Of a stretch of DNA of 64,000 nt, positions 44,529 through 57,949 are shown one piece after another; positions within the stretch are counted from its first letter, which is position 1, and each line of letters starts with the position of its first letter. The translations under genes were made by a program, and so were the position numbers. Source of the stretch: Pedobacter sp. PF22-3 (GTDB lineage Bacteria > Bacteroidota > Bacteroidia > Sphingobacteriales > Sphingobacteriaceae); the NCBI RefSeq assembly GCF_026239555.1, contig NZ_JAPIVP010000009.1, positions 62,001 to 126,000 of the forward strand, written 5' to 3'. The notes beneath the pieces are model-generated. The model was not told the DNA's origin, did not search any database, and saw only the letters and a list, made by a program, of their open reading frames with translations.

Positions 44529-45244
44529 AATAATCGATTAAGTTTTAGGTTGGATTTAGTAATGTTTTAATCACTTTTTATACTGGGCACTTTTAAAAAA
44601 TGATCTTATTGAATGTAAAATGTGACGGCCATTAAGCTATCATAACTCAATGGTTATGCACTCTTCCTCTTAACATGAAATGGCCGGAAAGGTTTACGCA
44701 TTGTTATTAAAAGCATTTGAATTTGCAAAAAAACACTTTTAACAATGGATATTTCTAAAAATTGCTTTCATTTCTGTTGAAAATGATGGAAGCCCGGCTT
44801 TAAAATCCCGATCAGATCAGGTTTATTTCTAAACCGATCTGGTGTTATGAATGAATATGATGTTCGTGAAAAGACTTAGCTATAGCTAAGGATTTGGATT
44901 AGGTAATTGAAAAGTTAAAATGGTAGTGAAACAAAATGCATTGGCATAGATGTCACAAACCAAAAGATTCATTCTTATCAACAAGTCCCTTCCGCCCTGC
45001 AACCCAAATAGTTTTGCCGGCCGGGCCAACTAAACCTGACCGGAACGAAGACGAAGCAGAGCATAACAAAGCGAAGAGGTACTGTATTGAGCTATTAATA
45101 CTTTACCTGATTTCCAAAGAGATGCATATCATTCGATTATTAACATATGGAGTCATCTTAATGATTTTTTTGATTCACCTGTTTCTAAGTAAATTTATTC
45201 TGGTTAGTATAAAACCGAATGATAAGTGTTTACGTATGTTTTAA
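44529..45244. other. Long intergenic region (no supported gene)
   Basis: The region contains an imperfect hairpin AGATC-A-GGTTT/AAACC-GATCT (44814-44840) and a perfect 16-bp palindrome CTTAGCTATAGCTAAG (44875-44890). A 102-codon frame at 44936-45244 has an unconvincing N-terminal half; its last 40 residues (from ATG 45122) are hydrophobic (IIRLLTYGVILMIFLIHLFL). It ends abutting the RNA element at 45245. I do not call it a gene. Confidence 0.35.
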
Positions 45245-45337
45245 TGTAGGGGGTGAGAGTCCTACACAGGCGAAAGCTTGAGAGCGTTAATTTAGATTGA
45301 GGGGTTAATTATGGATATAATTAATCCCCTTTTTTTG
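45245..45337 (+). ncRNA. Duplicated structured small RNA candidate, copy 1
   Basis: Hairpin 1 has TGTAGG (45245-45250) paired with CCTACA (45261-45266) around GGGTGAGAGT. Hairpin 2 is CAGGC-GAAA-GCTTG, a GNRA loop. An unpaired GAGAGCGTTAATTTAGATT follows. The 3' end is a terminator, GGGGTTAATTAT...ATAATTAATCCCC, followed by seven T. The conserved upstream blocks are AAAACCG and TTTACGTA, separated by 11 bases. Copy 2 is at 57854-57949. Function unknown. Confidence 0.7.
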
Positions 45338-45582
45338 GTACCGGAACTGGTATACACCAAATAAAAGCCCGGAAATTTTATTTCAGATAGGTTTGCTTTT
45401 ATTAGCGGGTATCTGCCACAGAACTCACTATCTGTATCTCCATAGCATCATATTTGTCCGTATTAATTCAATACGGGTAAAAACCGCACTATTACACCGT
45501 CCAGCCAATAATCAGCACTATTTTTAGCCTTAATTTTAAATTGATCATCGATGTGGGCAAATATTTGGCAGTTCCAGCTTCA

Positions 45583-47190
45583 TCAACGTTCATCTGTAAA
45601 TTTAATTTCCATAATCTTTTGTTCAAACTGCTCCGGAGGCACCAGCGCTTTTGCTTTCATACGGGCTTTGTAGGTATAAACCGTATTTACCGTATAATCC
45701 AATATGCGGGCAATGGTTTCCGTATCAGTTACCCCTAAACGGATAAGCGCAAAAATACGTAGCGATGCGGTAAGCATTTCCCCTTCCTTTAGCTCAATCT
45801 GTTCGTCGGCTCTTAAAAGTGCATTAAATGAAGAAACGAAATTGGGGAAAAGGGTTAAAAAGACACTGTCCAGTGTACCAAACAACTGGATTTTCTCTTT
45901 TTGGATGTGTACATTTCCCAATACCTGGGTGGCATCCTGATATTTTCCTAATTTAATATTGTGCTGCGCTTTTCGTTTTACTTTATCGAGCGTTTCGATG
46001 TAGGAAGAACAGGTTTTAAAGAACAGGCCAATAAGTTCTTCCTTAATCCGTGATGATTCCCATAGCTTGCCATTTACATCTTCAAGTTCTGTATTCTTCT
46101 CTGTAATGATCAGATCGTTCTGTTCAATCCGGATCATCTGTTTGCGGAAAAGCACCAATTGAAAAAGCAAAACTATGGCCACCAGAATAAATAACACAAT
46201 TCCAATCCAAAGCATTTCTTTTTCATGCTGTTTTTCCTCTATCAACCTGCTCGCAATGAGCGGCAGTACCGATTCTATCTGTGCTGCCCTGTTTCTGGTT
46301 CCATAGAAAGCGGCATTACCCAGCGCCTCCTGCATACACACATAAGCATCATCATTCCTGTTCATTTTAAACAATTCCTGCCCCAGTAAAAATATGGCAA
46401 AGGTTTCTTTTGTTGCCGAGCGGATATCGTTGATGGCCGCAAGTGTGAGTAACATTAATTTATCCTTACCTGAATAAGCATGACTAATTCTGGTGGCGAT
46501 AATCGCAATCTGGTGCTCGGATAAATTGTGATTCAATAAATAGCGGTAATAAAATTCTGCATCTGGCTGCTTATTTTGCCCGGAACCCTGCAAAAAAGCA
46601 AGGTTAATGGTTTTTTCAAGCTCACCCGGATCAATCAAACTCCCCGCCTTTTCAAATTCTTTTCGGGCAGCCTTACGGTAGTCTGTGGCATAATATGCAT
46701 CATTATTGTAAGCCGCAATTTCGTCGAAAAGCATGCCACGTAAATTCAGATAGTCATAATGAAATTTACCCGTCCCCCCAAGCGTATCTATTTCAGCAAT
46801 GGTTTCAAAAGCCTCCTTATAAAAGCCAGACTTCACCAAAACTGTTGCCAGTCCCATCTGGCTTTGAATGAGGTATTGTTTATTGTTCAGCTTTTTTGAA
46901 AGCGCAACTAATTTATTGGCGTTTGTAATGGCAGAGTCGAAACGGAAAGAACTATACTCATTAAATAAGGCAGACAACAATCTGTACCGCTCCTGGTACC
47001 GGGGCGTTGTGATGGCCGCAAGCTGGTTACGCAGTCTGGCAATTTTTTCTTCTTTTTGCCTGATATAATTGTTTTCTGTTGAAAGTTCCAACCTAAGCAC
47101 TTTCCATAAACTGTCTGCTTTTGAAGTTTGCGCCTGAACGGGAAAAATGTAAAAAAGCAGAATAATAATCGCAATAATTTTCTTTATCAT
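45583..47190 (-). CDS. DUF6377-type TPR sensor/transcriptional regulator of the adjacent PUL
   Basis: This is a 535-residue protein from ATG 47190, chosen because it starts a signal/anchor sequence MIKKIIAIIILLFYIFPVQAQ (an upstream extension of 33 codons is unlikely). A periplasmic helical TPR-like part (about 25-300) is followed by a transmembrane helix near 330-350 and a coiled-coil linker. The C-terminus is a LuxR-like helix-turn-helix (LGVTDTETIARILDYTVNTVYTYKARMKAKA). DUF6377 proteins often sit beside SusC/D loci as regulators. It is divergent from the GH43 gene, separated by a dyad-rich promoter. Confidence 0.82.
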   Translation of the reverse strand: MIKKIIAIIILLFYIFPVQAQTSKADSLWKVLRLELSTENNYIRQKEEKIARLRNQLAAITTPRYQERYRLLSALFNEYSSFRFDSAITNANKLVALSKKLNNKQYLIQSQMGLATVLVKSGFYKEAFETIAEIDTLGGTGKFHYDYLNLRGMLFDEIAAYNNDAYYATDYRKAARKEFEKAGSLIDPGELEKTINLAFLQGSGQNKQPDAEFYYRYLLNHNLSEHQIAIIATRISHAYSGKDKLMLLTLAAINDIRSATKETFAIFLLGQELFKMNRNDDAYVCMQEALGNAAFYGTRNRAAQIESVLPLIASRLIEEKQHEKEMLWIGIVLFILVAIVLLFQLVLFRKQMIRIEQNDLIITEKNTELEDVNGKLWESSRIKEELIGLFFKTCSSYIETLDKVKRKAQHNIKLGKYQDATQVLGNVHIQKEKIQLFGTLDSVFLTLFPNFVSSFNALLRADEQIELKEGEMLTASLRIFALIRLGVTDTETIARILDYTVNTVYTYKARMKAKALVPPEQFEQKIMEIKFTDER

Positions 47191-47415
47191 CAATAATGCT
47201 GTTGGCCTGCGGCTCGATATATAAACATACAATAAATTATGATTTAAGCTAAATGCTGTTTCCATATCGTGTTTCAAAACCAGTCGCACAGCATTTATCT
47301 CCCCTGAACCCTGAAAAAAAGTCTTGATTTTAAAAGCATTATCAATTCATAAAGCGTTTTATTTCAGTCATTTAAAATCCATCTGGTTTTGATTTACATG
47401 GAAGTGGGTTTCAAA

Positions 47416-47474
47416 TTGAAATGATAGCGTTTTTTGATCGCTACTTTTGGCTAACCAAATAACGATCATTTCAA
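47416..47474 (+). promoter_or_regulatory. GH43 promoter flanked by a perfect 10-bp inverted repeat with nested dyads
   Basis: TACTTTTG (47442-47449) matches the TAnnTTTG -7 box. TTGAAATGAT (47416-47425), overlapping a possible -33 TTG, is the exact inverse of ATCATTTCAA (47465-47474), which lies just before the start codon at 47479. Inside lie TGATCG/CGATCA (47435-47440/47463-47468) and TTTGG-CTAA-CCAAA (47446-47459). These are candidate operators for the divergent regulator. Confidence 0.6.
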
Positions 47475-47478
47475 CTTT

Positions 47479-48582
47479 ATGAGAAACAGATTTTTTATCC
47501 TGATGGCAGTAGGGCTTCCGCTCTTAACCACAGCCTGTCAGAAAACTTCTCAGGGAGATACGGTTCTCACCACACAGGGCACAGCAGTAAAGTATTTTCA
47601 GAATCCATTGCTCAATGGCGATCATGCGGATCCTTTTGTAACCCAGAAAGACGGAAACTATTATTTTTTGTCTACTAAAGGCAACCGTGTAGCCATCGCA
47701 AAAACAAAAGCCATGTCTCAACTCGCTGAAGCTACGGAAACCACGGTTTGGACCCCACCCGAAAATACCGATCACTCAGCCGACCTATGGGCGCCGGAGT
47801 TGCATTTTTTAGCGGGCAAATGGTATATTTATGTTGCCGCAGCACAAAAGGGTGTAGACGATAGTAACCGCATGTTTGTATTGGAAAATGAAAACGCCGA
47901 TCCCACACAGGGTAGCTGGAATTTCAAAGGTAAAATTGCCGATGCGGCAAATGATCAGTGGGCGATAGATGGTTCTGTTGTTACAGTAGGCGGTAAAAAC
48001 TATTTCGTCTGGTCGGGCTGGGAAAATCCAGCAGAGAAATATAAACAATATATTTACCTCGCGCCCATGTCTAATCCCTGGACCATCAGCGGACCGCGAA
48101 TCAAAATCTCCTCACCAACAAACGACTGGGAAAAATGGGAACCCACTTTTCTTGGCGCAGGCGTAAACGAAGGACCGGTTATGCTACAACGCGACGCCAA
48201 CAGCCCCTTATTTATTATTTTCTCGGCCAGCCGTTACAGCAGTGACAATTACTGCCTGGCACAAATCCAGTTGAAAACCGGCAGCGACCCGGCAGTTGCA
48301 GAAAACTGGATCAACAAAAAACAGGTATTTGTAAGGAGTGATAAAAATGCGGTTTACGGGCTCGGGCATAATGGTTTTTTCACCAGTAGCAACAGGGATG
48401 ATAACGGCACGTTGAAAACCGAAAATTGGTTTATCTATCATGCACGCAGTATGCCAAATGATCCTGGTCAGGCCAGAACGACCAGAATGCAGCAACTTTC
48501 CTGGAAGGCAGATGGATCACCCGATTTCGGAACCGCCATCAGTACGGGGATCAAGCTTTCCTGTCCCATCAACGAACAATAG
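47479..48582 (+). CDS. Glycoside hydrolase family 43 lipoprotein
   Basis: This is a 367-residue predicted surface or periplasmic lipoprotein (signal ending LTTAC, Cys20). The five-bladed propeller fold of GH43 is supported by the catalytic base Asp51 in NGDHADPFV, the pKa-tuning Asp164 in WAIDGSV and the acid Glu231 in NEGPVML. ADLWAPELHF (101-110) and GHNGFF are further typical elements. Members act on alpha-L-arabinofuranosides or beta-xylosides; which one cannot be decided here. It heads the presumed operon GH43-SusC-SusD. Confidence 0.92.
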   Translation: MRNRFFILMAVGLPLLTTACQKTSQGDTVLTTQGTAVKYFQNPLLNGDHADPFVTQKDGNYYFLSTKGNRVAIAKTKAMSQLAEATETTVWTPPENTDHSADLWAPELHFLAGKWYIYVAAAQKGVDDSNRMFVLENENADPTQGSWNFKGKIADAANDQWAIDGSVVTVGGKNYFVWSGWENPAEKYKQYIYLAPMSNPWTISGPRIKISSPTNDWEKWEPTFLGAGVNEGPVMLQRDANSPLFIIFSASRYSSDNYCLAQIQLKTGSDPAVAENWINKKQVFVRSDKNAVYGLGHNGFFTSSNRDDNGTLKTENWFIYHARSMPNDPGQARTTRMQQLSWKADGSPDFGTAISTGIKLSCPINEQ

Positions 48583-48775
48583 GCTAATGCATACCATCCG
48601 TTTTGTACTGTGCCGCTAAAGCGGCAAGAGGGATCCGTTTTGTCTTTTTTTTCTAAAACTCACTAACCAGATCTATAATTTATGACACCAAAAAAAGCTG
48701 TGGTCATCCAAAAGACCAAGTCCTATCTGCCACCCAATTTTAAACCAGTAATTGAAAAAAACAACTAAACCAGCT

Positions 48776-51700
48776 ATGAGAAAACTTTTACATGATTATA
48801 AGGGAAGCACTGCTGCCGGAACCCTTGGTTTCCGTACGATGTGCTTCATGATGATCATCTGTTGTTGTTCCGCTGCCCTCGCGCATGCCAACACAGATAA
48901 AAAAACCCGTCCGTACATATTATCTGCTAAAAACCTCCGGAAAGATATTGAAGTAAGGGGAAGTGTAACCGATACCAGCGGAGTCGGCCTGCCGGGCGTA
49001 GTAATAAGCGTAAAAGGCCGCAACGGCTTTGGTACAGTCACAGATGTTAATGGCGGCTACCTGATCAAAGTTCCTGAAGATGCCACGCTGGTATATAGCA
49101 TGGTGGGTTTTATCCGTCAGGAAGTGGCCGTCAGTTCACGCGGATTTATTGCAGTCAAACTGCGCCAGAACCAGGCCATGTTAGAGGATGTGGTTGTAGT
49201 AGGCTATGGCACCCAGCAGAAAAACAATGTTACCGGTGCACTTACTTCCGTTAGTTCGAAAGAACTGCTGCGCACACCAACAGCCAGTTTAACCAACAGC
49301 CTTGCCGGACGTTTACCTGGTCTTTTAACCATACAGAGCAGTGGCGAGCCCGGAGCCGACGGCTCTGCACTCTACATCCGTGGGTTTGGCACCTATCAGG
49401 GCAAAAGCCCCCTCGTGCTGGTTGATGGGATCGAGAACAGTATCGACGGTATTGATGCGAACGATGTAGAAACGGTAAGCGTTTTAAAAGATGCAGCTGC
49501 CACAGCAGTTTACGGTATGAAGGGTGCAAATGGCGTGGTACTGGTTACGACTAAACGGGGAAAAACAGGTAAACCACTTATTTCACTTACCGCACAGACT
49601 TCGCAACAACGCCCGTTCAATATGCCAGAATACCTTGACTCATTTGATGCGCTCACCCTGTTCAGGGAAGCCCTGAACAATGATGGCTTGAATGCTAACC
49701 TCTACACGGATGCCTACCTGAATAAATTCCGCGACCGCAGTAACCCTACTTACCAGTACCTCTATCCAAATGTGAACTGGACAGAAGAACTGATCAAGCC
49801 CTCATCAATGATGAGCCAGGCTAACCTCAATGTCAACGGCGGTTCTTCAACGGCCCGGTACTTTGTATCTATGGCCTATCTAAAACAGGATGGATTGTAC
49901 AAATACGATGATCTGAATGCGTACAACATCAATGCGGTGATGAATAAGTACAATTTCAGAAGCAACATCGATATCGATCTTTTACCTACACTCAAGTTGG
50001 AGCTCAACCTTTCAGACATTGTTCGCGATCGCAACTATCCGACAGAAACGGCAAGCGCCTTCTGGTCTGAAATACGAAATACACCAGCCTATCTTTATCC
50101 TTTAACCAATCCTAACGGTTCGGTATCCGGGCAAAAAGATTCGCCAGCCAATCCTTACGGCCGTTTAACCCAGTTTGGATATGGACGTTTTTTCGAAAAC
50201 ACCTTGAGTTCGATTATCGGGTTTACCCTAAAACTGCCCTTTATTACCGAGGGACTGAGCTTTAGAACACGCTTTGCATACGATGCCCAGAACTTCAGAA
50301 ACATTACCCGGCAACGGAATTATTCTACTTACAGGTTTATTACCAACGAAAACGAAACAGACTTGAGCAAAGGCCGTTACGAAGAGCTGACCACGGGTGA
50401 TGGTTTGCTCGGTTTTAACATTGCTGCGAACGGCAGCCGCAAATCAACCTTTGAGAGTTACCTGAACTACGACCGGACCTTTGCGCAGAAACATGTGGTT
50501 TCGGGTATGCTCCGTTACAACCAATCGCAGAGTTTTTTGGCCACCGCCACTGCTGATGGCGCCATCGCTGCCTTACCCTATAAACAATTGGGCATAGTAG
50601 GTCGGGTTAATTATTCATTCGACAGGCGTTATGTACTGGAATTCGATGCGGGTTATAATGGTTCAGAGAACTTTATGAAAGGGCGGCGTATGGGCTTTTT
50701 CCCGGCAGCGTCTGCCGGCTGGATCATATCCAATGAGCAGTTTATGAAAGATTCTAAATTGGTAAGCCTATTGAAATTAAGGGGTTCTTATGGTATAGTT
50801 GGGGTTGATAACAGTGTTGGGCGTTTTGCGTACCTCAGTACCTGGCAAACCGGGAACGGCAGTGGCTATCGCTTTGGTTTGGCTGCCGATGGAGATGGCT
50901 ACTCCGGCGCACAGGAAAGTGCCACCGGAAATTCATTCCTCACCTGGGAACAGTCCAAAAAAACAAATATTGGTGTAGATTTCGAATTATTTAAAGGGCA
51001 GATCGCTTTTACCGGTGATGTTTTTACCGAAAGGCGCTCGCAGATTCTAACCACGGCAGCCATCATTCCAAATGTAACGGGTGTTCAAAATTTACCAGCA
51101 ATTAATGCCGGTATAGTAGATAACAAGGGCTTTGAAGGAGAAATTACCTTCCGCAAACGCTTCGGCAACCACAACCTGATGTTACGTGGCTCCTATTCGT
51201 ATGCCACCAACCGGATACAGTATGCTGCAGAGCCCACCTATGCCCTGCCATACCGAGGACTAAGAGGTACACAGATCAATGAAGCTTACGGCTTAACCGC
51301 TCTTGGCTTATTTAAAGATGCAGCAGATATCGCAGCAAGTCCTACCCAGCAATTCGGTGCCGTGCGCCCGGGTGATATCAAATACCTTGACCGAAACGGA
51401 GACGGTGTGATCAACAGCCAGGATGAAGGTTACCTGGGCCAGGTAACCACCCCAAAATCAATTTTGGGTTTAACGGTGTCCTATACTTACAAAAACTTTG
51501 ATCTGAATGTGCTTTTTCAGGGTGCTACCGGGGGCAAACTCTGGTTAACCGGTACTTCAGCCTGGGCTTTCGCCAGCAACAGCTCGGTACTGGCCGACTA
51601 TATGGATGGGCGTTGGACCACACAGAATCCTGACCCAAATGCCAAATGGCCACGATTATCTTCGTCCAACAATGTAAATAATAACCAAAACTCCACCTTC

Positions 51701-51928
51701 TGGCTACGGTCATCCAATTATGTACGCCTAAAAAACGTAGAGGTAGGTTACACACTGCCCAAAACCTGGATCAAAAAAATCGGACTCACCAATATCAGGG
51801 CCTTTGCCACCGGATCAAATATTTTTACTTGGTCTGAAATGAAGATTTTCGATCCGGAGCGAACCAATGGCTTTGGAGACTATCCTCAAATGCGCGTAAT
51901 CAACTTAGGAATAAATGCTTCATTGTAA
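48776..51928 (+). CDS. SusC/RagA-family TonB-linked outer-membrane transporter of the PUL
   Basis: This is a 1050-residue importer. I start at ATG 48776; a TTG 24 bases upstream is less likely. The long N-terminal signal region is MRKLLHDYKG...ALAHA. A carboxypeptidase-regulatory domain (about 50-125) includes VRGSVTDTSGVGLPGVVISVKG. The plug (about 135-270) includes LEDVVVVGYGTQQKNNVTGAL, PLVLVDGIENSIDGID and VSVLKDAAATAVYGMKGANG. The barrel ends INLGINASL. The SusD gene starts 5 bases after its stop, indicating a tightly coupled pair. It imports oligosaccharide with energy from TonB-ExbBD. Confidence 0.95.
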   Translation: MRKLLHDYKGSTAAGTLGFRTMCFMMIICCCSAALAHANTDKKTRPYILSAKNLRKDIEVRGSVTDTSGVGLPGVVISVKGRNGFGTVTDVNGGYLIKVPEDATLVYSMVGFIRQEVAVSSRGFIAVKLRQNQAMLEDVVVVGYGTQQKNNVTGALTSVSSKELLRTPTASLTNSLAGRLPGLLTIQSSGEPGADGSALYIRGFGTYQGKSPLVLVDGIENSIDGIDANDVETVSVLKDAAATAVYGMKGANGVVLVTTKRGKTGKPLISLTAQTSQQRPFNMPEYLDSFDALTLFREALNNDGLNANLYTDAYLNKFRDRSNPTYQYLYPNVNWTEELIKPSSMMSQANLNVNGGSSTARYFVSMAYLKQDGLYKYDDLNAYNINAVMNKYNFRSNIDIDLLPTLKLELNLSDIVRDRNYPTETASAFWSEIRNTPAYLYPLTNPNGSVSGQKDSPANPYGRLTQFGYGRFFENTLSSIIGFTLKLPFITEGLSFRTRFAYDAQNFRNITRQRNYSTYRFITNENETDLSKGRYEELTTGDGLLGFNIAANGSRKSTFESYLNYDRTFAQKHVVSGMLRYNQSQSFLATATADGAIAALPYKQLGIVGRVNYSFDRRYVLEFDAGYNGSENFMKGRRMGFFPAASAGWIISNEQFMKDSKLVSLLKLRGSYGIVGVDNSVGRFAYLSTWQTGNGSGYRFGLAADGDGYSGAQESATGNSFLTWEQSKKTNIGVDFELFKGQIAFTGDVFTERRSQILTTAAIIPNVTGVQNLPAINAGIVDNKGFEGEITFRKRFGNHNLMLRGSYSYATNRIQYAAEPTYALPYRGLRGTQINEAYGLTALGLFKDAADIAASPTQQFGAVRPGDIKYLDRNGDGVINSQDEGYLGQVTTPKSILGLTVSYTYKNFDLNVLFQGATGGKLWLTGTSAWAFASNSSVLADYMDGRWTTQNPDPNAKWPRLSSSNNVNNNQNSTFWLRSSNYVRLKNVEVGYTLPKTWIKKIGLTNIRAFATGSNIFTWSEMKIFDPERTNGFGDYPQMRVINLGINASL

Positions 51929-51932
51929 TCTC

Positions 51933-53786
51933 ATGAAAAATATCACCAAGCTGCTCTTGGCAGTACTATTATTCAGCACCACTTCCTGTAAAAAATACCT
52001 GGATGTGGTTCCCGCCGAATACTCGAGCGAAAATGATGTTTATAATAACATCAACCTTACTGAACAGGCACTTGCCCGTTTATATAACGCGCTGCCGAAT
52101 GAGCTAGCCTCACCCCTAACGGCCGCAACAGATGAAACCTACCACCATTGGTTCGATAATGGCGAAGCGATAGATGCCTACAAATATAACCTTGGCGCAT
52201 GGAGCACCAACGACAATCCATACGGTAACTGGTCTGGCAAATACCAGGATATCCGCAGGGCCAATATCTTTATCAAACGCATAGATGCGGTTCCGGTACC
52301 ACTCGATCGGGAAAGCTATTATGCCATCTGGAAACCACGTTACAAAGCCGAGGCCCGCTTTCTTCGTGCCCAGTTTTATTTTGAACTTTTTAAACGCTAT
52401 GGAGCGGTTCCGTTAATCACCAGCTCAAATGATGTAGACCCTGGCAACCTGGAAGATACGCAGGTTGCCCGTAATTCGGTAGATGAGGTGGTAAATTTCA
52501 TCACTTCAGAGTGCGACGAGATTTCAACCGTACTGCCACTCACCCAGGAAGCCGCACAAACCGGCCGCGTTACCAAAGGCGCAGCACTGGCCTTAAAATC
52601 CCGGACTTTATTGTATGCCGCCAGTCCATTGTTTAACGGCAATCCGCTCTACGCCAACATACAAAATAAAGATGGCAAAGTTCTGTTTAGCCGTAGTTAT
52701 GACAAAGAAAAATGGAAAAAGGCCGCAGATGCGGCAAAGGCCGTTATCGATTTAGGCATTTACAAACTGTATGCGCCTTTTCCGGATAATCCGGTACAAA
52801 ATTATGCAGCACAGTTTTATACCCGAGATTATACCGAAACCATCTTTCAGCGCATCCTCGGCAACTCCACTGATATTGATGGTAACTATCTGCCCAATGG
52901 CTCCCCTTTTAAGGGAAATGGAAAACTAACGCCGTTACAGCAGTTTGTTGATGCTTATGAGATGAAAAATGGTTATCCGATTAATCAAACCGGTTCTGGC
53001 TACAGCACTACCGGGGTGTGGAGCGGGCAGCTGTGGGACGGACTGAAATTTCAGACGGTAAGTAATATATCCAACATGTTCAAAGATCGCGACCCCCGGT
53101 TTTATGCCAGTATCTTTTTCCAGTACGATGTATGGCGTTTCGATGCCACCAAGCGCCCGGTAAGGCTGGCCTGGTACGGTGCCGGCAACGGCATTACAGA
53201 TGGTTGGGCAACGGGCAAATCGGGTACCAACCCCTGGGGCTATAATGTCCGCAAGTTTTTATCGCCCGGTTATGATAGAAACGCCAATTCGGGCACAGGG
53301 ACCCGCAACTTTCCAATTTTCCGATTGGCAGAGATGTACCTCAATTATGCAGAAGCCATGAATGAATACCTTGATGCACCAGATCAATCTGTTTATCAAT
53401 ACCTCAACCTGGTACGCGGCCGGGTGGCCATGCCCAACCTGCCCATTCTGCCTGCAGATAATACCAAAGGCGGTATGCGCAACCGGATCCAAAATGAGCG
53501 CCGGGTTGAACTGGCTTTTGAAAGCCAACGGTTCTGGGATGTAAGGCGCTGGTTAATCGCCAAAACAGTAGATAATGCACCAGCGCTGGGCCTCAATGCA
53601 CGCCCTTCAGCAGCCGAACTGAGCAGTACCGGTCTGGATGTATCCAGCGAGGCGGCGGGGGTAGCCGTATTTTACAAAACCGTTACCTTGCAAAACCGCG
53701 TCTTTGCCGATAAACACTATCTCATGCCCATACCACAATCTGAAATTGATAAAGATCCAAACCTGGTTCAAAATTATGGCTGGTAA
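51933..53786 (+). CDS. SusD/RagB-family glycan-binding outer-membrane lipoprotein
   Basis: This is a 617-residue surface lipoprotein with signal MKNITKLLLAVLLFSTTSC (lipid Cys19) followed by KKYLDVVP. The TPR-like helical scaffold is visible in RYKAEARFLRAQFYFELFKRYG and RVTKGAALALKSRTLLYAASPL. The C-terminal FRLAEMYLNYAEAMNEY, NERRVELAFESQRFWDVRRW and HYLMPIPQSEID are typical of the main SusD family. I start at ATG 51933; a start six codons upstream is possible but overlaps susC. It follows its SusC partner directly and precedes a strong terminator. Confidence 0.95.
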   Translation: MKNITKLLLAVLLFSTTSCKKYLDVVPAEYSSENDVYNNINLTEQALARLYNALPNELASPLTAATDETYHHWFDNGEAIDAYKYNLGAWSTNDNPYGNWSGKYQDIRRANIFIKRIDAVPVPLDRESYYAIWKPRYKAEARFLRAQFYFELFKRYGAVPLITSSNDVDPGNLEDTQVARNSVDEVVNFITSECDEISTVLPLTQEAAQTGRVTKGAALALKSRTLLYAASPLFNGNPLYANIQNKDGKVLFSRSYDKEKWKKAADAAKAVIDLGIYKLYAPFPDNPVQNYAAQFYTRDYTETIFQRILGNSTDIDGNYLPNGSPFKGNGKLTPLQQFVDAYEMKNGYPINQTGSGYSTTGVWSGQLWDGLKFQTVSNISNMFKDRDPRFYASIFFQYDVWRFDATKRPVRLAWYGAGNGITDGWATGKSGTNPWGYNVRKFLSPGYDRNANSGTGTRNFPIFRLAEMYLNYAEAMNEYLDAPDQSVYQYLNLVRGRVAMPNLPILPADNTKGGMRNRIQNERRVELAFESQRFWDVRRWLIAKTVDNAPALGLNARPSAAELSSTGLDVSSEAAGVAVFYKTVTLQNRVFADKHYLMPIPQSEIDKDPNLVQNYGW

Positions 53787-53828
53787 ACTGACAAAAACCC
53801 CTAAGGGATAGCCGTTCCAGCAGCTCTC

Positions 53829-53868
53829 CCATGCATGCAGATGGTTCTTCATCTGCATGCATGGTTTT
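53829..53868 (+). terminator. Perfect 15-bp terminator hairpin of the PUL operon
   Basis: CCATGCATGCAGATG (53829-53843) pairs exactly with CATCTGCATGCATGG (53850-53864) across GTTCTT, followed by TTTT. It lies 42 bases beyond the SusD stop. Confidence 0.85.
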
Positions 53869-54199
53869 ATGGTTTCGGATATCCATCATGTCAGATACAT
53901 TACCCTCCAATAACTTTAGGCAATGTGCATGTAACCTTCCTGAATTTCGACGCCTGCCAGAAGAAAAATATCCTCCGCTACGCAGTATTCTTCGGGTTTT
54001 GAAAAGCGCGTTACGTTTACTGTCTTATATTTCTAAAAACATCCGGAATTCTTTTGTAATTTGCGCTGATCCCGTTCATTATTCATGGTGATAGCTGCCC
54101 AAAATCATGGCAGAATTTACATTATTCAGGTGTTTTTCTGGCGAACTGGTTTTGCAGTAAAGCTGTTTTGAGTTGCATCATTGTTAATTTCAATTATTG
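53869..54199. other. Intergenic region upstream of the Crp/Fnr gene (no gene seen)
   Basis: The region is less GC-rich than the PUL and holds TTTTGTAATTTG near 54053, a poor -7 match. An 86-codon frame spanning the PUL terminator is judged spurious. Confidence 0.35.
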
Positions 54200-54778
54200 A
54201 TGTTCGATATTTTAATAAAACATATTCGTCAGAAGGTTGATTTGGGCCAACAGGATCTGATCTTGCTGAAAACTTTTTTTACCCCCAAAAAGCTGAACCG
54301 GAAAGCGTTTTTATTGCGTGAAGGGGAAATCTGCAATCATCTCGCTTTTGTAAGCAGTGGAATCCTAAAATCATTTACCAGTGATGAAAAAGCGCAGGAA
54401 CGAATTAATCTTTTTGCATTTGAAGGCTGGTGGATTTCTGATTTTAACAGCTTTATCAACCGGGAAAAAGCCCTGCTGAATATCAGCGCCATTGAAAATG
54501 CTGAATTGCTGCTGATCAGTTTTGATGATTATGAAGCATTAACACTTCAAATTCCATTAATGGACCGCTATTTCAGAATCCTGTATCAAAACAGCCTGGT
54601 TACCAAAGATCGCCGGCTCATGATTTCAAATAAGTCTACTGCAATGGAAAAGTACCTGTCACTCGTACACCATAATCCTGATATGGTGAAAAGAATTCCA
54701 CATACCCTTATTGCCTCCTATTTAGGATTAAGTCCGGAAACGGTGAGCAGGATCAGAAAAAAGCTGTTATTTCAATAA
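54200..54778 (+). CDS. Crp/Fnr family transcriptional regulator
   Basis: This is a 192-residue cytoplasmic regulator. An N-terminal cyclic-nucleotide-binding-type beta-roll (about 15-110) contains REGEICNHLAFVSSGILKSF. A dimerisation helix follows, then a compact C-terminal HTH with LIASYLGLSPETVSRIRKKL (about 170-189). It ends right after the HTH, as in the short Bacteroidota members of this family. No Fe-S cysteine cluster of the FNR kind is visible. A TTGA-N6-TCAA dyad lies just downstream, at the promoter of the next gene, a likely target. Confidence 0.9.
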   Translation: MFDILIKHIRQKVDLGQQDLILLKTFFTPKKLNRKAFLLREGEICNHLAFVSSGILKSFTSDEKAQERINLFAFEGWWISDFNSFINREKALLNISAIENAELLLISFDDYEALTLQIPLMDRYFRILYQNSLVTKDRRLMISNKSTAMEKYLSLVHHNPDMVKRIPHTLIASYLGLSPETVSRIRKKLLFQ

Positions 54779-54797
54779 TCCCTTAATTTATGTTATC

Positions 54798-54848
54798 AAA
54801 TACTTGATCTCGGTCAAGTATTTTACCATCGGTTCGTGCTTACTTTTG
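54798..54848 (+). promoter_or_regulatory. Crp/Fnr-like dyad and -7 box of the PRISE gene promoter
   Basis: AAATACTTGA (54798-54807) and TCAAGTATTT (54814-54823) form a perfect inverted repeat with inner TTGA-N6-TCAA. The TACTTTTG -7 box is at 54841-54848. The dyad centre is about 43 bases upstream of the presumed start of transcription, the usual place for class II Crp-type activation. The hairpin plus TTTT could instead be a terminator for the regulator gene. Confidence 0.6.
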
Positions 54849-54879
54849 TGCTGTTCTTACAAGTTAAAAAAAGGCATTT

Positions 54880-55950
54880 ATGATGAAAAATAGTGCATTG
54901 GTTGTGGGTTCAACCGGAATTACAGGAAGCAATCTGGTTGAAGAATTAATTGCACAAAACTGGACTACTTTTGGTTTGGCAAGAAACCATAACAGGCCAG
55001 TTGAAGGGCTAAAACCTATCAAAGCAGACCTGCTTGATGAAGAAAGTTTAGCTGTTGCGTTAAAGGATGTTTCTCCTACGCACGTTTTTTTTACCACCTG
55101 GATGCGGAAAGCTAATGAACAAGAAAACATCATCGTTAACATTACCATGGTAAGCAATCTGCTCAATGCATTATCTCCTAAAAAGTCAGTCCGCCATGTA
55201 GCATTGGTTACCGGTTTAAAACACTATTTAGGCCCTTTTGAAGCCTATGCGAAGGAAGGAATATTACCTGAAACCCCAGTAAGGGAAGAACATCCCAGGT
55301 TAGCCTACCCCAATTTCTATTATGCTCAGGAAGATGCCGTGTATGAAGCGGCAAACAGAGATCACTTTACCTGGAGCATTCACCGGCCGCATACCGTTAT
55401 CGGCTACGCCATCGGCAACCTGATGAACATGGGAATTACCTTAGCGGTTTATGCAAGCATCTGCAAAGAAACAGGTGCAAAGTTCACATGGCCTGGTTCA
55501 GCAGCCCAGTGGAATGGGTTATCAGATGTTACTGATGCTAAAATACTGGCCAAACAGCTCATTTGGGCTTCTACTACAGAAAATGCTAAAAATCAGGCTT
55601 TCAACATCACCAATGGCGATGTCTTCAGGTGGAAATGGTTATGGAACAAAATTGCAGACTACTTCGGAATTGAAGCCGACGGTTACAATGGCTCCATCAG
55701 GCCGCTTGAAAAAGAAATGGAAAATAAACAGGAAATCTGGAACCAGATCACACATCAACATGGACTGAAAGAATCCAGCCTTGATCGGTTAAGTTCTGCC
55801 TGGCATACGGATCTCGATCTGGGCAGGCCGCTGGAAGTGATGACCGATATGTCTAAAAGCAGGAAATACGGCTTTAATGCTTTCGAAAGCACAGCAGATT
55901 CTTTTTTCAGCTTATTCCAGAAATTGAAACAGGAAAAGATCATTCCTTAA
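54880..55950 (+). CDS. SDR-family oxidoreductase of the PRISE type (progesterone 5-beta-reductase/iridoid synthase-like)
   Basis: This is a 356-residue NADPH-dependent enone reductase-like protein. The Rossmann loop GSTGITGSN is at 10-18. The body includes VALVTGLKHYLGPFEAYAK, with the Lys of the active-site LKHY, and NFYYAQED near 145-151 with the catalytic Tyr. FTWSIHRPHTVIGYAIGNLMNMG is the typical PRISE segment. Members reduce activated C=C bonds; physiological bacterial substrates are unknown. The upstream regulator and promoter dyad suggest inducible expression. Confidence 0.88.
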   Translation: MMKNSALVVGSTGITGSNLVEELIAQNWTTFGLARNHNRPVEGLKPIKADLLDEESLAVALKDVSPTHVFFTTWMRKANEQENIIVNITMVSNLLNALSPKKSVRHVALVTGLKHYLGPFEAYAKEGILPETPVREEHPRLAYPNFYYAQEDAVYEAANRDHFTWSIHRPHTVIGYAIGNLMNMGITLAVYASICKETGAKFTWPGSAAQWNGLSDVTDAKILAKQLIWASTTENAKNQAFNITNGDVFRWKWLWNKIADYFGIEADGYNGSIRPLEKEMENKQEIWNQITHQHGLKESSLDRLSSAWHTDLDLGRPLEVMTDMSKSRKYGFNAFESTADSFFSLFQKLKQEKIIP

Positions 55951-56268
55951 ATTACAGCATAACATCATCATAAAGCCATACCAATTTGTAGAGATTTATA
56001 TTTTTACGGATAAAACCCAGTACATGATCATTAAGCGACTAATATCTACATTAAATAACTGAAAAGATGGCCAGAATGGATTAAAACCAGTGGTTAATAA
56101 GCAGAACCATAAGCAAGGAAGGCCATAAAGTTCGTTTGGGTTTCGAATACACCGCCCAAACTTATTCATCCTTAATTAAAACCGTACAATTCTCTGGTTT
56201 TATATAAATTGATTGCTATATCTGTATATCTTTACCATTCATTACCCTTACCTAATCCATCATTCTAA
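55951..56268. other. Intergenic region between PRISE and serine hydrolase genes (318 bases)
   Basis: The region is AT-rich. TATCTTTA just upstream of 56245 resembles a -7 box with one mismatch (TAnnTTTG). I see no gene, RNA or repeat in it. Confidence 0.35.
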
Positions 56269-57738
56269 ATGAAGCATTTTTTGAAGTTTTTTTTAGCAGT
56301 TTCCCTCACACTTTCATGTACCTTTTCCGCTTTCGCTCAAACAGACAGCATCGATGTATTTATTCAGCATCAGATGCAAAAACGCAGGATTCCAGGACTC
56401 AATCTGGCCATTGTGAGACATGGTAAAATCATCAAAACAGGCTATTATGGAATTGCCAATATCCAGGATTCTATTGCGGTAAACCCAAAAACAGTATTTA
56501 CCATTAACTCCATCACAAAGGCTTTTGTAGGCGTTGCCATTCTGCAACTTGTGGAAGAAGGAAAATTAAAGCTTGATCTACCGATTTCAAATTACCTGAC
56601 AGATATTCCCGAAACCTGGAAAACCGTGAAAGTACAGCAACTGTTATCTCATACTTCAGGAATTCCTGATCTTGTGGATGAAGAGGAAGCGGTGATGATT
56701 GCTGATAATTTTGACCTGTCGTTGAAAAAGGTTTTAACAATGCCCAATGATTTTGCTACAGGTTCAGCATTCCGTTATAATCAAACGAATTACTATCTGC
56801 TCGGTCTTATCATCAATAAACTCAGCGGAATTACCTTCCAGCAGTATATTACCAAAAACCAGCTGGAAAAGGTAGGCATGCCGCTCACCATTCAATCAGG
56901 ATTCGGCGCAACAAAGGAGCTCGTACCAAATGCAGCCAGCCAATACCAATTCGCTAAAGGCAAGCTTAATAATATGTTCTTTTCTTTTCCTGCGCCATTA
57001 CAAACAGCGGCTGGCATGAGCGCTACAGCCAGTGAATTGGCCAAGTGGGTTATTGCGCTGCAAAACATGGTTTTGTTAAAGCAAAAATCAAGTTTAGAAG
57101 CACTTTGGAAACCAGATATCCTCAACAATGGAAAAACGTCCGGTTTTAGCGGACTTCTTAATGGTTATGCTGCAGGGTGGCCTATTATTGTTAGAAATGA
57201 ACACCCCGCAGTGGCTCCTGTAGGTGGTGGAAGGTCTGCTGTATTTGTTTACCCAAAGGATGATCTTTCCATTATCATATTAACCAATTTATCAGGCGGC
57301 ACGCCAGATGGATTTATAGATGAACTGGCAGGATTGTTTATACCAGATATGAAGGCTGCTAATGGCTTCGGCATGTCTCCTTCTGCTAAGTCTTTGAAAC
57401 TGACTTTGGATAAGAATGGCTACAAAAATGTGGATGAGACCATTAAAAAGCTGAAAGCTAAAAATAAGAATTTTATCCTTACAGAGACTGAAGTGAATGA
57501 TTGGGGATATAAATTGGTAGCACAGAAAAGACTGAAAGATGCCTTAGAATTGTTTAAGCTAAATGTGTCTTTATATCCATCCAGTTCAAATGCTTACGAC
57601 AGTTTGGGCGAAACCTATGCGGAGTTGGAAATGTATGATTTAGCCCTTACAAACTATGAAAAGGCATTTAAGCTAAATCCAAAGAACAAAAGTGCCGAAG
57701 TAATTATTGCTAAGCTAAAAGAGTTGTTAAAAAAATAG
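56269..57738 (+). CDS. Serine hydrolase (class C beta-lactamase fold) with C-terminal TPR
   Basis: This is a 489-residue exported enzyme. The signal peptide MKHFLKFFLAVSLTLSCTFSAFAQ leads to the hydrolase domain. The nucleophile Ser81 and Lys84 lie in SITK (81-84). FRYNQTNYYLLG (168-179) holds the Tyr170 of the usual YxN motif, with Gln where Asn is common. VGGGRSAVFVYP near 323-334 stands for the KTG box. A TPR-like helix-turn-helix (NAYDSLGETYAELEMYDLALTNYEKAFKLNPKN, split at 443-475) ends the protein. It could be a peptidase or esterase rather than a beta-lactamase. Confidence 0.88.
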   Translation: MKHFLKFFLAVSLTLSCTFSAFAQTDSIDVFIQHQMQKRRIPGLNLAIVRHGKIIKTGYYGIANIQDSIAVNPKTVFTINSITKAFVGVAILQLVEEGKLKLDLPISNYLTDIPETWKTVKVQQLLSHTSGIPDLVDEEEAVMIADNFDLSLKKVLTMPNDFATGSAFRYNQTNYYLLGLIINKLSGITFQQYITKNQLEKVGMPLTIQSGFGATKELVPNAASQYQFAKGKLNNMFFSFPAPLQTAAGMSATASELAKWVIALQNMVLLKQKSSLEALWKPDILNNGKTSGFSGLLNGYAAGWPIIVRNEHPAVAPVGGGRSAVFVYPKDDLSIIILTNLSGGTPDGFIDELAGLFIPDMKAANGFGMSPSAKSLKLTLDKNGYKNVDETIKKLKAKNKNFILTETEVNDWGYKLVAQKRLKDALELFKLNVSLYPSSSNAYDSLGETYAELEMYDLALTNYEKAFKLNPKNKSAEVIIAKLKELLKK

Positions 57739-57853
57739 TTTTAACAAAGGTTTTACCAGCAAAATCAAATGGATCAATATGATTCCAACATTTTTTAAGA
57801 AATTTATGGGTATGGAAAAAACCGCCTAATCAATTTTTACGTACTGTTTAATA

Positions 57854-57949
57854 TGTAGGGGGTGAGAGTCCTACATCTAGCGAAAGCTTGAGAGCGTTAA
57901 TTTAGATTTGAGGGGCTGTAATCATGGATTTGATTAACCCATTTTTTTT
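57854..57949 (+). ncRNA. Duplicated structured small RNA candidate, copy 2
   Basis: Copy 2 of the element at 45245-45337. TGTAGG (57854-57859) pairs with CCTACA (57870-57875) around the same GGGTGAGAGT loop. AGC-GAAA-GCT follows, then the unchanged GAGAGCGTTAATTTAGATT. The terminator stem has a changed sequence (GGGGCTGTAATC / GATTAACCC), yet still pairs, then T-tract. AAAACCG, 11 bases and TTTACGTA precede it, as in copy 1. It stands 115 bases after the serine hydrolase stop. Confidence 0.7.

Follow-up and report, generated by a model that had tools for sequence, protein, structure and literature searches.

What are the two short elements that stand in separate intergenic places of a 64,000-nucleotide (nt) stretch of the Pedobacter sp. 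PF22-3 genome (contig NZ_JAPIVP010000009.1, positions 62,001 to 126,000; this whole stretch is the window), and what might they do for the cell? A preliminary description, made from the letters of the window, had read them as members of a regulatory small RNA (sRNA) family, and this reading is supported by promoter-like sequence of the extracytoplasmic function (ECF) or sigma-ABfr type in 129/170 copies from host genomes and by a terminator in 168/170. We consider them members of a multi-copy family of regulatory sRNAs, each transcribed on its own, that Pedobacter, a genus of soil bacteria, shares with its sister genera and that would act in trans through a seed in their 5' core, a reading to which we assign a probability of roughly 0.6. 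The family itself, with its conserved core, its structure, and its recurrent promoter-like boxes, is established by sequence comparison.

The 18-nt core, GAGAGCGTTAATTTAGAT, occurs exactly at only two places in the window (with up to three mismatches allowed, shuffles average 0.06 occurrences, and 0/100 reach two). In the 5.63-Mb source genome it has 12 exact matches, one with a single mismatch, and two with two mismatches, as compared with 0 for the reversed pattern. With up to two mismatches, it was present in 60/60 genomes drawn from the genus (541 matches, as compared with 26 for the reversed pattern), at 2-17 copies per genome with a median of 8. Among 151 genomes drawn from the order, 62/62 members of the genus and 15/89 others carried it with at most one mismatch (3 control matches); each of these 15 genomes holds a single match, one of which (L054) lacks a terminator and is taken as chance, and the remaining 14 comprise 11 exact matches and three (G093, G164, and G186) that are counted as matches only. 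Genus g2 yielded no match and genus g3 only L054. In a phylum-level draw of 247 genomes, 20/240 genomes outside the family matched, all with two mismatches and at or below the level of the reversed pattern. Stretches with the exact core in named genomes (80 listed, at least 119 found) belong to Pedobacter in 75 of the 80 listed, and the non-Pedobacter genomes among the matches listed are Desertivirga, Arcticibacter, a Sphingobacteriaceae metagenome-assembled genome, and Flavobacteriaceae bacterium PS02338; the record so titled holds exact copies (L110 and L142) and is possibly a mislabelled Sphingobacteriaceae genome. Copies are in places clustered, with 2-3 per about 0.5-2.2 kb (L009-L011, L115, and L122), and at L018 a second copy, GAGAGCGTTAATTTAAGGG, lies 166 bases past the first with its own hairpin and differs in the last three core bases.

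The anatomy of the family was read from 222 copies with at most one mismatch, of which 202 are non-redundant at 80% identity (170 host, 32 phage); since these copies were selected by their core, its invariance in the 202-copy set is uninformative, and the flanks are the informative part. The basic form extends over 50-67 nt from the start of the core to the T-run (median 55) and consists of a single-stranded 5' end, GAGAGCGUUAAUUUAGAU, with an intrinsic terminator directly after it; the near-constant start of the RNAs spans 15-18 letters, and position -1 of the core is C or T in 96%. A single-hairpin terminator follows the core in 168/170 host copies, its stem beginning 0-1 nt past the core in 155 of the 168, as compared with 28/202 for upstream sequence and 62/202 for shuffled downstream sequence; the two host copies that fail are L054 and L088 (the latter with a good stem and a poor T-run), and 26/32 phage copies pass. 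Because unlike terminators fail to align, model R1, made from 40 diverse copies (of 77), contains no base pairs, and it was not used for searching. With its own promoter-like sequence, its own terminator, its conservation, and its location outside called open reading frames (ORFs; 201/202 copies), the family displays the generic marks of sRNA genes.

The host copies fall into three promoter classes, namely 99 ECF-type, 25 TAnnTTTR, and 46 other. The ECF-type class is defined by a CG-type motif within the last 18 bases, its informative part being the fixed place of that motif: CG[TC] stands at -13 or -12 in 96/99 ECF-type copies, as compared with 2.4% at control positions, and an AA-rich AAC/AAT box lies 19 bases upstream of the CG box. 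A CGT -10 box is taken as the mark of ECF promoters in the account available for Flavobacterium psychrophilum (PMC9723704). The sigma-ABfr -7 box was detected by a positional test in 31/170 host and 9/32 phage copies (control positions, 34/2020, or 1.7%) and ends 4-5 nt upstream of the core in 28/31 host and 9/9 phage copies (37/40 together). Given this position and the published placement of the box at -12 to -5 (PMC9723704), we infer that transcription would start at the core's initial G or one base upstream of this G, which would put the 5' end of the transcript at, or within one base of, the G. Over 1.6 Mb, a matrix of the ECF-type promoter gave 42 matches, one of which is the element itself, and no recognised sigma factor gene was among them.

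The window holds a more elaborate version of this plan. The preliminary description had placed its two copies at 45245-45337 and 57854-57949 on the plus strand, where both were located, with the following parts.

45211-45236, plus strand: copy 1, promoter-like pair of ECF type predicted from sequence, with AAAACCG (-35) at 45211-45217 and TTTACGTA (-10, CGT box) at 45229-45236
45245-45266, plus strand: copy 1, hairpin P1 with loop GGTGAGAG (fold; covariation over 14 long-form rows)
45267-45280, plus strand: copy 1, hairpin P2 with GAAA loop, its final base being the first G of the core (fold; covariation)
45280-45297, plus strand: copy 1, core GAGAGCGTTAATTTAGAT
45300-45336, plus strand: copy 1, intrinsic terminator P3 with 12 pairs by scan and a T-run (fold; terminator scan)
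57818-57843, plus strand: copy 2, promoter-like pair predicted from sequence and spaced as in copy 1, with AAAACCG at 57818-57824 and TTTACGTA at 57836-57843
57853-57876, plus strand: copy 2, hairpin P1 with loop GGTGAGAG (fold and alignment)
57877-57890, plus strand: copy 2, hairpin P2 with GAAA loop and one mismatched pair (alignment pairs)
57890-57907, plus strand: copy 2, core GAGAGCGTTAATTTAGAT
57912-57949, plus strand: copy 2, terminator region with an interrupted stem, then 8 T

As had been described, the 22-base block TGTAGGGGGTGAGAGTCCTACA and the region of the GAAA-loop hairpin are the same in both copies, and AAAACCG and TTTACGTA keep an 11-base spacing in both; by reading, these two boxes fit an ECF-type -35/-10 pair with one extra base between them. 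The shared block through GAGAGCGTTAATTTAGATT is likewise identical, although it measures 29 bases and not the 28 first given, and the claim of an intrinsic terminator at both ends holds for copy 1 (12 pairs) but not for copy 2, in which the scan finds none and the stem is interrupted. Copy 1 folds as P1-P2-core-P3 (z -3.3); the whole fold of copy 2 is no better than that of shuffles (z -0.33, 72/200 shuffles as good), and its P2 is not chosen by a single-sequence fold. Because its fold is weak and its terminator scan negative, copy 2 may be decaying. Copy 1 is followed by the 3' end of a convergent gene for a DUF6377 protein, in which a weak TPR-like match was seen; copy 2 is flanked upstream by a serine hydrolase of the beta-lactamase family that has TPRs and downstream by an amidohydrolase gene that converges on it.

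This long form, defined by two extra 5' hairpins of which the first displays GGUGAGAG in its loop, is the rarer one: the P1 loop GGTGAGAG was found in 14 host copies, four of them in the source genome (two of these in the window), where most copies lack the 5' hairpins, and in a further copy (L148) P1 is broken. In a covariation alignment of 14 long-form rows (12 host, 2 phage), 89.3% of P1/P2 cells are paired, as compared with 78.6% in shuffles (0/500 as high), 25 cells are changed on both sides (8.4 in shuffles; 0/500), and the covariation score is 0.438 (0.217 in shuffles; 0/500), slid versions reaching at most 0.101. Pairs changed on both sides number 6 against 3.8 (17/500), and further pair types, 11 against 12.7, do not exceed shuffles. 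The additional copies with covarying stems that the preliminary description had proposed to seek in relatives do exist there. The part common to the family is the 15-18-nt core with its terminator, and the 5' hairpins mark a sub-form.

One copy can be followed across genera. Syntenic loci were sought in 61 genomes of the family via the protein of the upstream neighbour gene, and the sequence past its stop codon was inspected; the core is present at 18 of the 23 best syntenic loci (three of the 23 within the genus), four loci are without it (L341 and L356-L358), and at L349 the end of the gene was not found. Core bases 1-8 (GAGAGCGT) are invariant in these 18 copies, and the positions that vary (9, 13, 14, and 16-18) do so mostly in the most distant genera. 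Boxes resembling GTAACCTT and GTAWAAG lie upstream of many, not all, of the syntenic copies, and the terminators differ; across 11 sister-genus genomes, GTAACCTT-N14-18-GTAWAAG gave 11 matches (reversed, 4), seven of which are the sRNA itself. The covariation of the syntenic terminator is mixed, in that the score (0.172 against 0.137, 7/500 shuffles as high) and the number of cells changed on both sides (7 against 3.4, 8/500) exceed shuffles, whereas the percentage paired (140/500), the pairs changed on both sides (252/500), and further pair types (450/500) do not; a second alignment of 14 Pedobacter rows was left out of this count.

The neighbouring ORFs, called mechanically at a length of at least 90 amino acids, bear on the relation of the element to adjacent genes. 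The downstream called ORF lies on the opposite strand in 125/192 copies and on the same strand in only 67/192; a role as leader or attenuator of the downstream gene was therefore rejected. By reading of their proteins, the recurrent upstream neighbours are a lipoprotein gene with the C-terminus FPSELGCYE, a ComF-like gene, and rpiA, and the recurrent downstream neighbours are glyA, glmS, and a GAF-sensor gene.

To our knowledge, sRNA regulation in Bacteroidetes outside Bacteroides has been little explored. The present family is apparently undescribed: no description was found in the open-access literature, including by the letters of the core, with subscription papers and preprints falling outside the scope. 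In Rfam, which the preliminary description had named as a check, neither the window nor 20 further loci (three from Pedobacter sp. BAL39) gave a match at threshold; with E values up to 10 admitted, the trpB motif (RF04312) appeared on L090 below threshold (28.4 bits where the cut-off is 59, with E 6.6), where it overlaps a copy, an overlap taken as chance. The enterobacterial RNAs RybB and MicA combine a promoter for the envelope-stress factor sigma-E, a conserved 5' seed, and a terminator, and the Pedobacter family resembles them in its predicted envelope-stress-sigma-type promoter, conserved putative 5' seed, and terminator; it differs in that its sequence is unrelated and that an outer-membrane target could not be shown. 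Among RNAs from Pedobacter itself, the Pedo-repair motif (RF01715) is listed in Table 1 of PMC2864571, and its covariance model has no match to the window or the same 20 loci. Rfp11 of F. psychrophilum is presented as a putative regulatory RNA under a CGT-box (SM6, ECF-type) promoter (PMC9723704); compared by description only, it is likewise a Bacteroidetes RNA with a CGT-box promoter, although its host belongs to a family other than Sphingobacteriaceae.

The closest likeness in layout is to FopS/GibS of Bacteroides thetaiotaomicron, portrayed in the portions of the sources drawn on here as having 12-15 copies, a single-stranded 5' seed, a terminator, and a phage copy, and as being bound by the RRM protein RbpB and repressing susC translation (PMC11697453; PMC7366714), with the function of FopS tested experimentally (PMC11697453). 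The Pedobacter family, too, has a conserved single-stranded 5' end and a Rho-independent terminator, is multi-copy (15 places in the source genome; single in sister genera), and has phage-borne copies and one RRM_1 gene in the Pedobacter genome. The two nevertheless differ, as Pedobacter promoters are mostly ECF-type and not sigma-ABfr, Pedobacter long forms carry two extra hairpins, and in 240 genomes from outside the family, which may or may not include Bacteroides, the Pedobacter core is no commoner than its control. The comparison is one of layout and description, not of R1 seed letters; the FopS authors state that an Rfam model was deposited (PMC11697453), which may or may not be among the Rfam models that gave no match at threshold here. 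FopS has a like layout although kinship in sequence is not shown, and the Pedobacter family therefore offers a handle on which sRNA rules are general to the phylum: all Pedobacter genomes sampled have it, one copy keeps its locus from genus to genus, its promoter is apparently of ECF type, and its 5' end hardly varies.

By analogy with such systems, the single-stranded 5' core would serve as a seed that pairs in trans with a limited set of mRNAs, possibly with help from an RRM protein, of which the source genome has one (RRM_1), as with FopS/GibS in Bacteroides, and an ECF-type promoter would point to envelope or nutrient stress as the inducer. Several results weigh against this proposal. Neither promoter type was detected by the positional test in 41/170 host copies, and the pairing tests identified no target: duplex energies at 1129 gene starts (about 1.66 Mb of the genome) show no excess over those of shuffled seeds, and the susC starts covered (30 of 56 genes) show no significant excess either, with 6/30 below -11 kcal/mol as compared with 10% for shuffled seeds with a spread of 7%. 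Enrichment of core complements upstream of starts is weak under a control that preserves the AT/GC pattern (8-mers at -25 to -1, 36 against 18.7, with 7/100 controls as high; 9-mers at -50 to -26, 9 against 3.8, with 2/100 as high), 36 bins having been examined. ACGCTCTC precedes ATG 464 times (reversed pattern, 327), but some of the 464 are the elements themselves read in antisense. The best single match, 12 nt upstream of susD, lies inside the coding sequence of the susC C-terminus, and pairing at the SusC/SusD junction is not general among the same 30 susC genes. Along 23S ribosomal RNA (rRNA), the longest exact complement of the core is 6 nt and the pairing energy is no better than that of shuffles; the 23S gene is on contig C30, and a 16S rRNA gene was not found in the source assembly. 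A separate observation concerns L283:6563 (+), where an exact 10-nt complement to the core lies some 29 nt upstream of the start of a gene that by eye resembles an ECF sigma factor gene.

Because the tests of mRNA pairing are weak or negative, protein titration is kept as the main rival. The RNAs CsrB and RsmZ work in this way, and here the GAGAG of the core would bind an RNA-binding protein, so that the copies act as a sponge or ligand in place of pairing with mRNA. For a seed, 15-18 invariant nt make a long stretch, GAGAG recurs within the long forms (in the P1 loop as well as where the core begins), and one RRM protein is at hand in the genome; set against this, short forms have one site per RNA, the protein partner was not identified, and positions 9, 13, 14, and 16-18 of the syntenic core can vary in distant genera, and we regard titration as somewhat unlikely. 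Another account, in which the element serves upstream genes in cis as a terminator or 3'-end module and has no function of its own, draws on the 131/202 copies that follow a same-strand called ORF (53 with the ORF end 40-60 nt before the core) and on stems such as AGAAAAAGC...GCTTTTTCT that would act in both directions. A terminator, however, needs no conserved 5' core, and the promoter-like boxes directly upstream of that core, the 59/202 copies that follow an opposite-strand ORF, and the three microviruses that keep the core while their hairpins differ make this account improbable. Least credible is a mobile repeat spread by transposition (debris resembling REP or MITE elements): there are many scattered copies, clustered in places, but 202/222 are non-redundant at 80% identity, only the core is common while the stems differ yet still pair, a syntenic copy is kept across genera, and inspection of the neighbour clusters by eye showed no transposase or target-site duplication, no search having been aimed at either.

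Viruses appear to carry the element too: the exact 18-mer occurs in 31 IMG/VR contigs, whose hosts are presumed from the core only. Five of seven neighbour fragments match phage families (head maturation protease, terminase, portal, tape measure, and microvirus replication protein). Three microvirus contigs carry the core (L193, L200, and L379, the last identical to L212; 4460, 4987, and 5599 bases as a set), and because all come from one metagenome they are not independent samples. In these, the core lies between the capsid and replication genes, straight after TATATTTGCTC and two bases, downstream of a sigma-ABfr box; it is kept in all three with three different hairpins, and the T-run behind the L379 hairpin is poor. 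Measured against the L200 capsid protein, two of the capsid proteins share 62 and 63% identity and annotated microvirus capsids about 40%. L380, a fourth contig related to these, offers no more than a look-alike that has two mismatches and a different setting. Why a virus of 4.5-5.6 kb should encode a host sRNA, its core kept while capsids diverge (62-63%), is a question that these copies pose. Tentatively, unrelated phages, including single-stranded DNA microviruses, might carry their own copy of the host sRNA to switch a host regulon during infection, for example by shutting off an envelope protein or by occupying an RNA-binding protein. As a side observation, the microvirus core and hairpin stand directly before the replication gene, so that a working terminator would make this gene dependent on read-through.

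The 5' end of the phage RNAs could be set variously, by a sigma-ABfr promoter, by tRNA 3' processing, or by an upstream hairpin. The tRNA-Met of one phage (L204:2802-2893) has its last base directly before the core; 3' processing of this tRNA would therefore yield the same 5' end, and the arrangement suggests a tandem tRNA-sRNA transcript. A hairpin closely upstream of the core is present in 15/32 phage copies, as compared with 6/170 host copies and 3/202 shuffles; the gap between its end and the core is 9-10 nt in 12 of the phage copies and 1 nt in the other 3. In double-stranded DNA phages (L188, L197, L198, L205-L211, and L217), a GC-rich hairpin 9-10 nt before the core is followed by a T/G-rich spacer.

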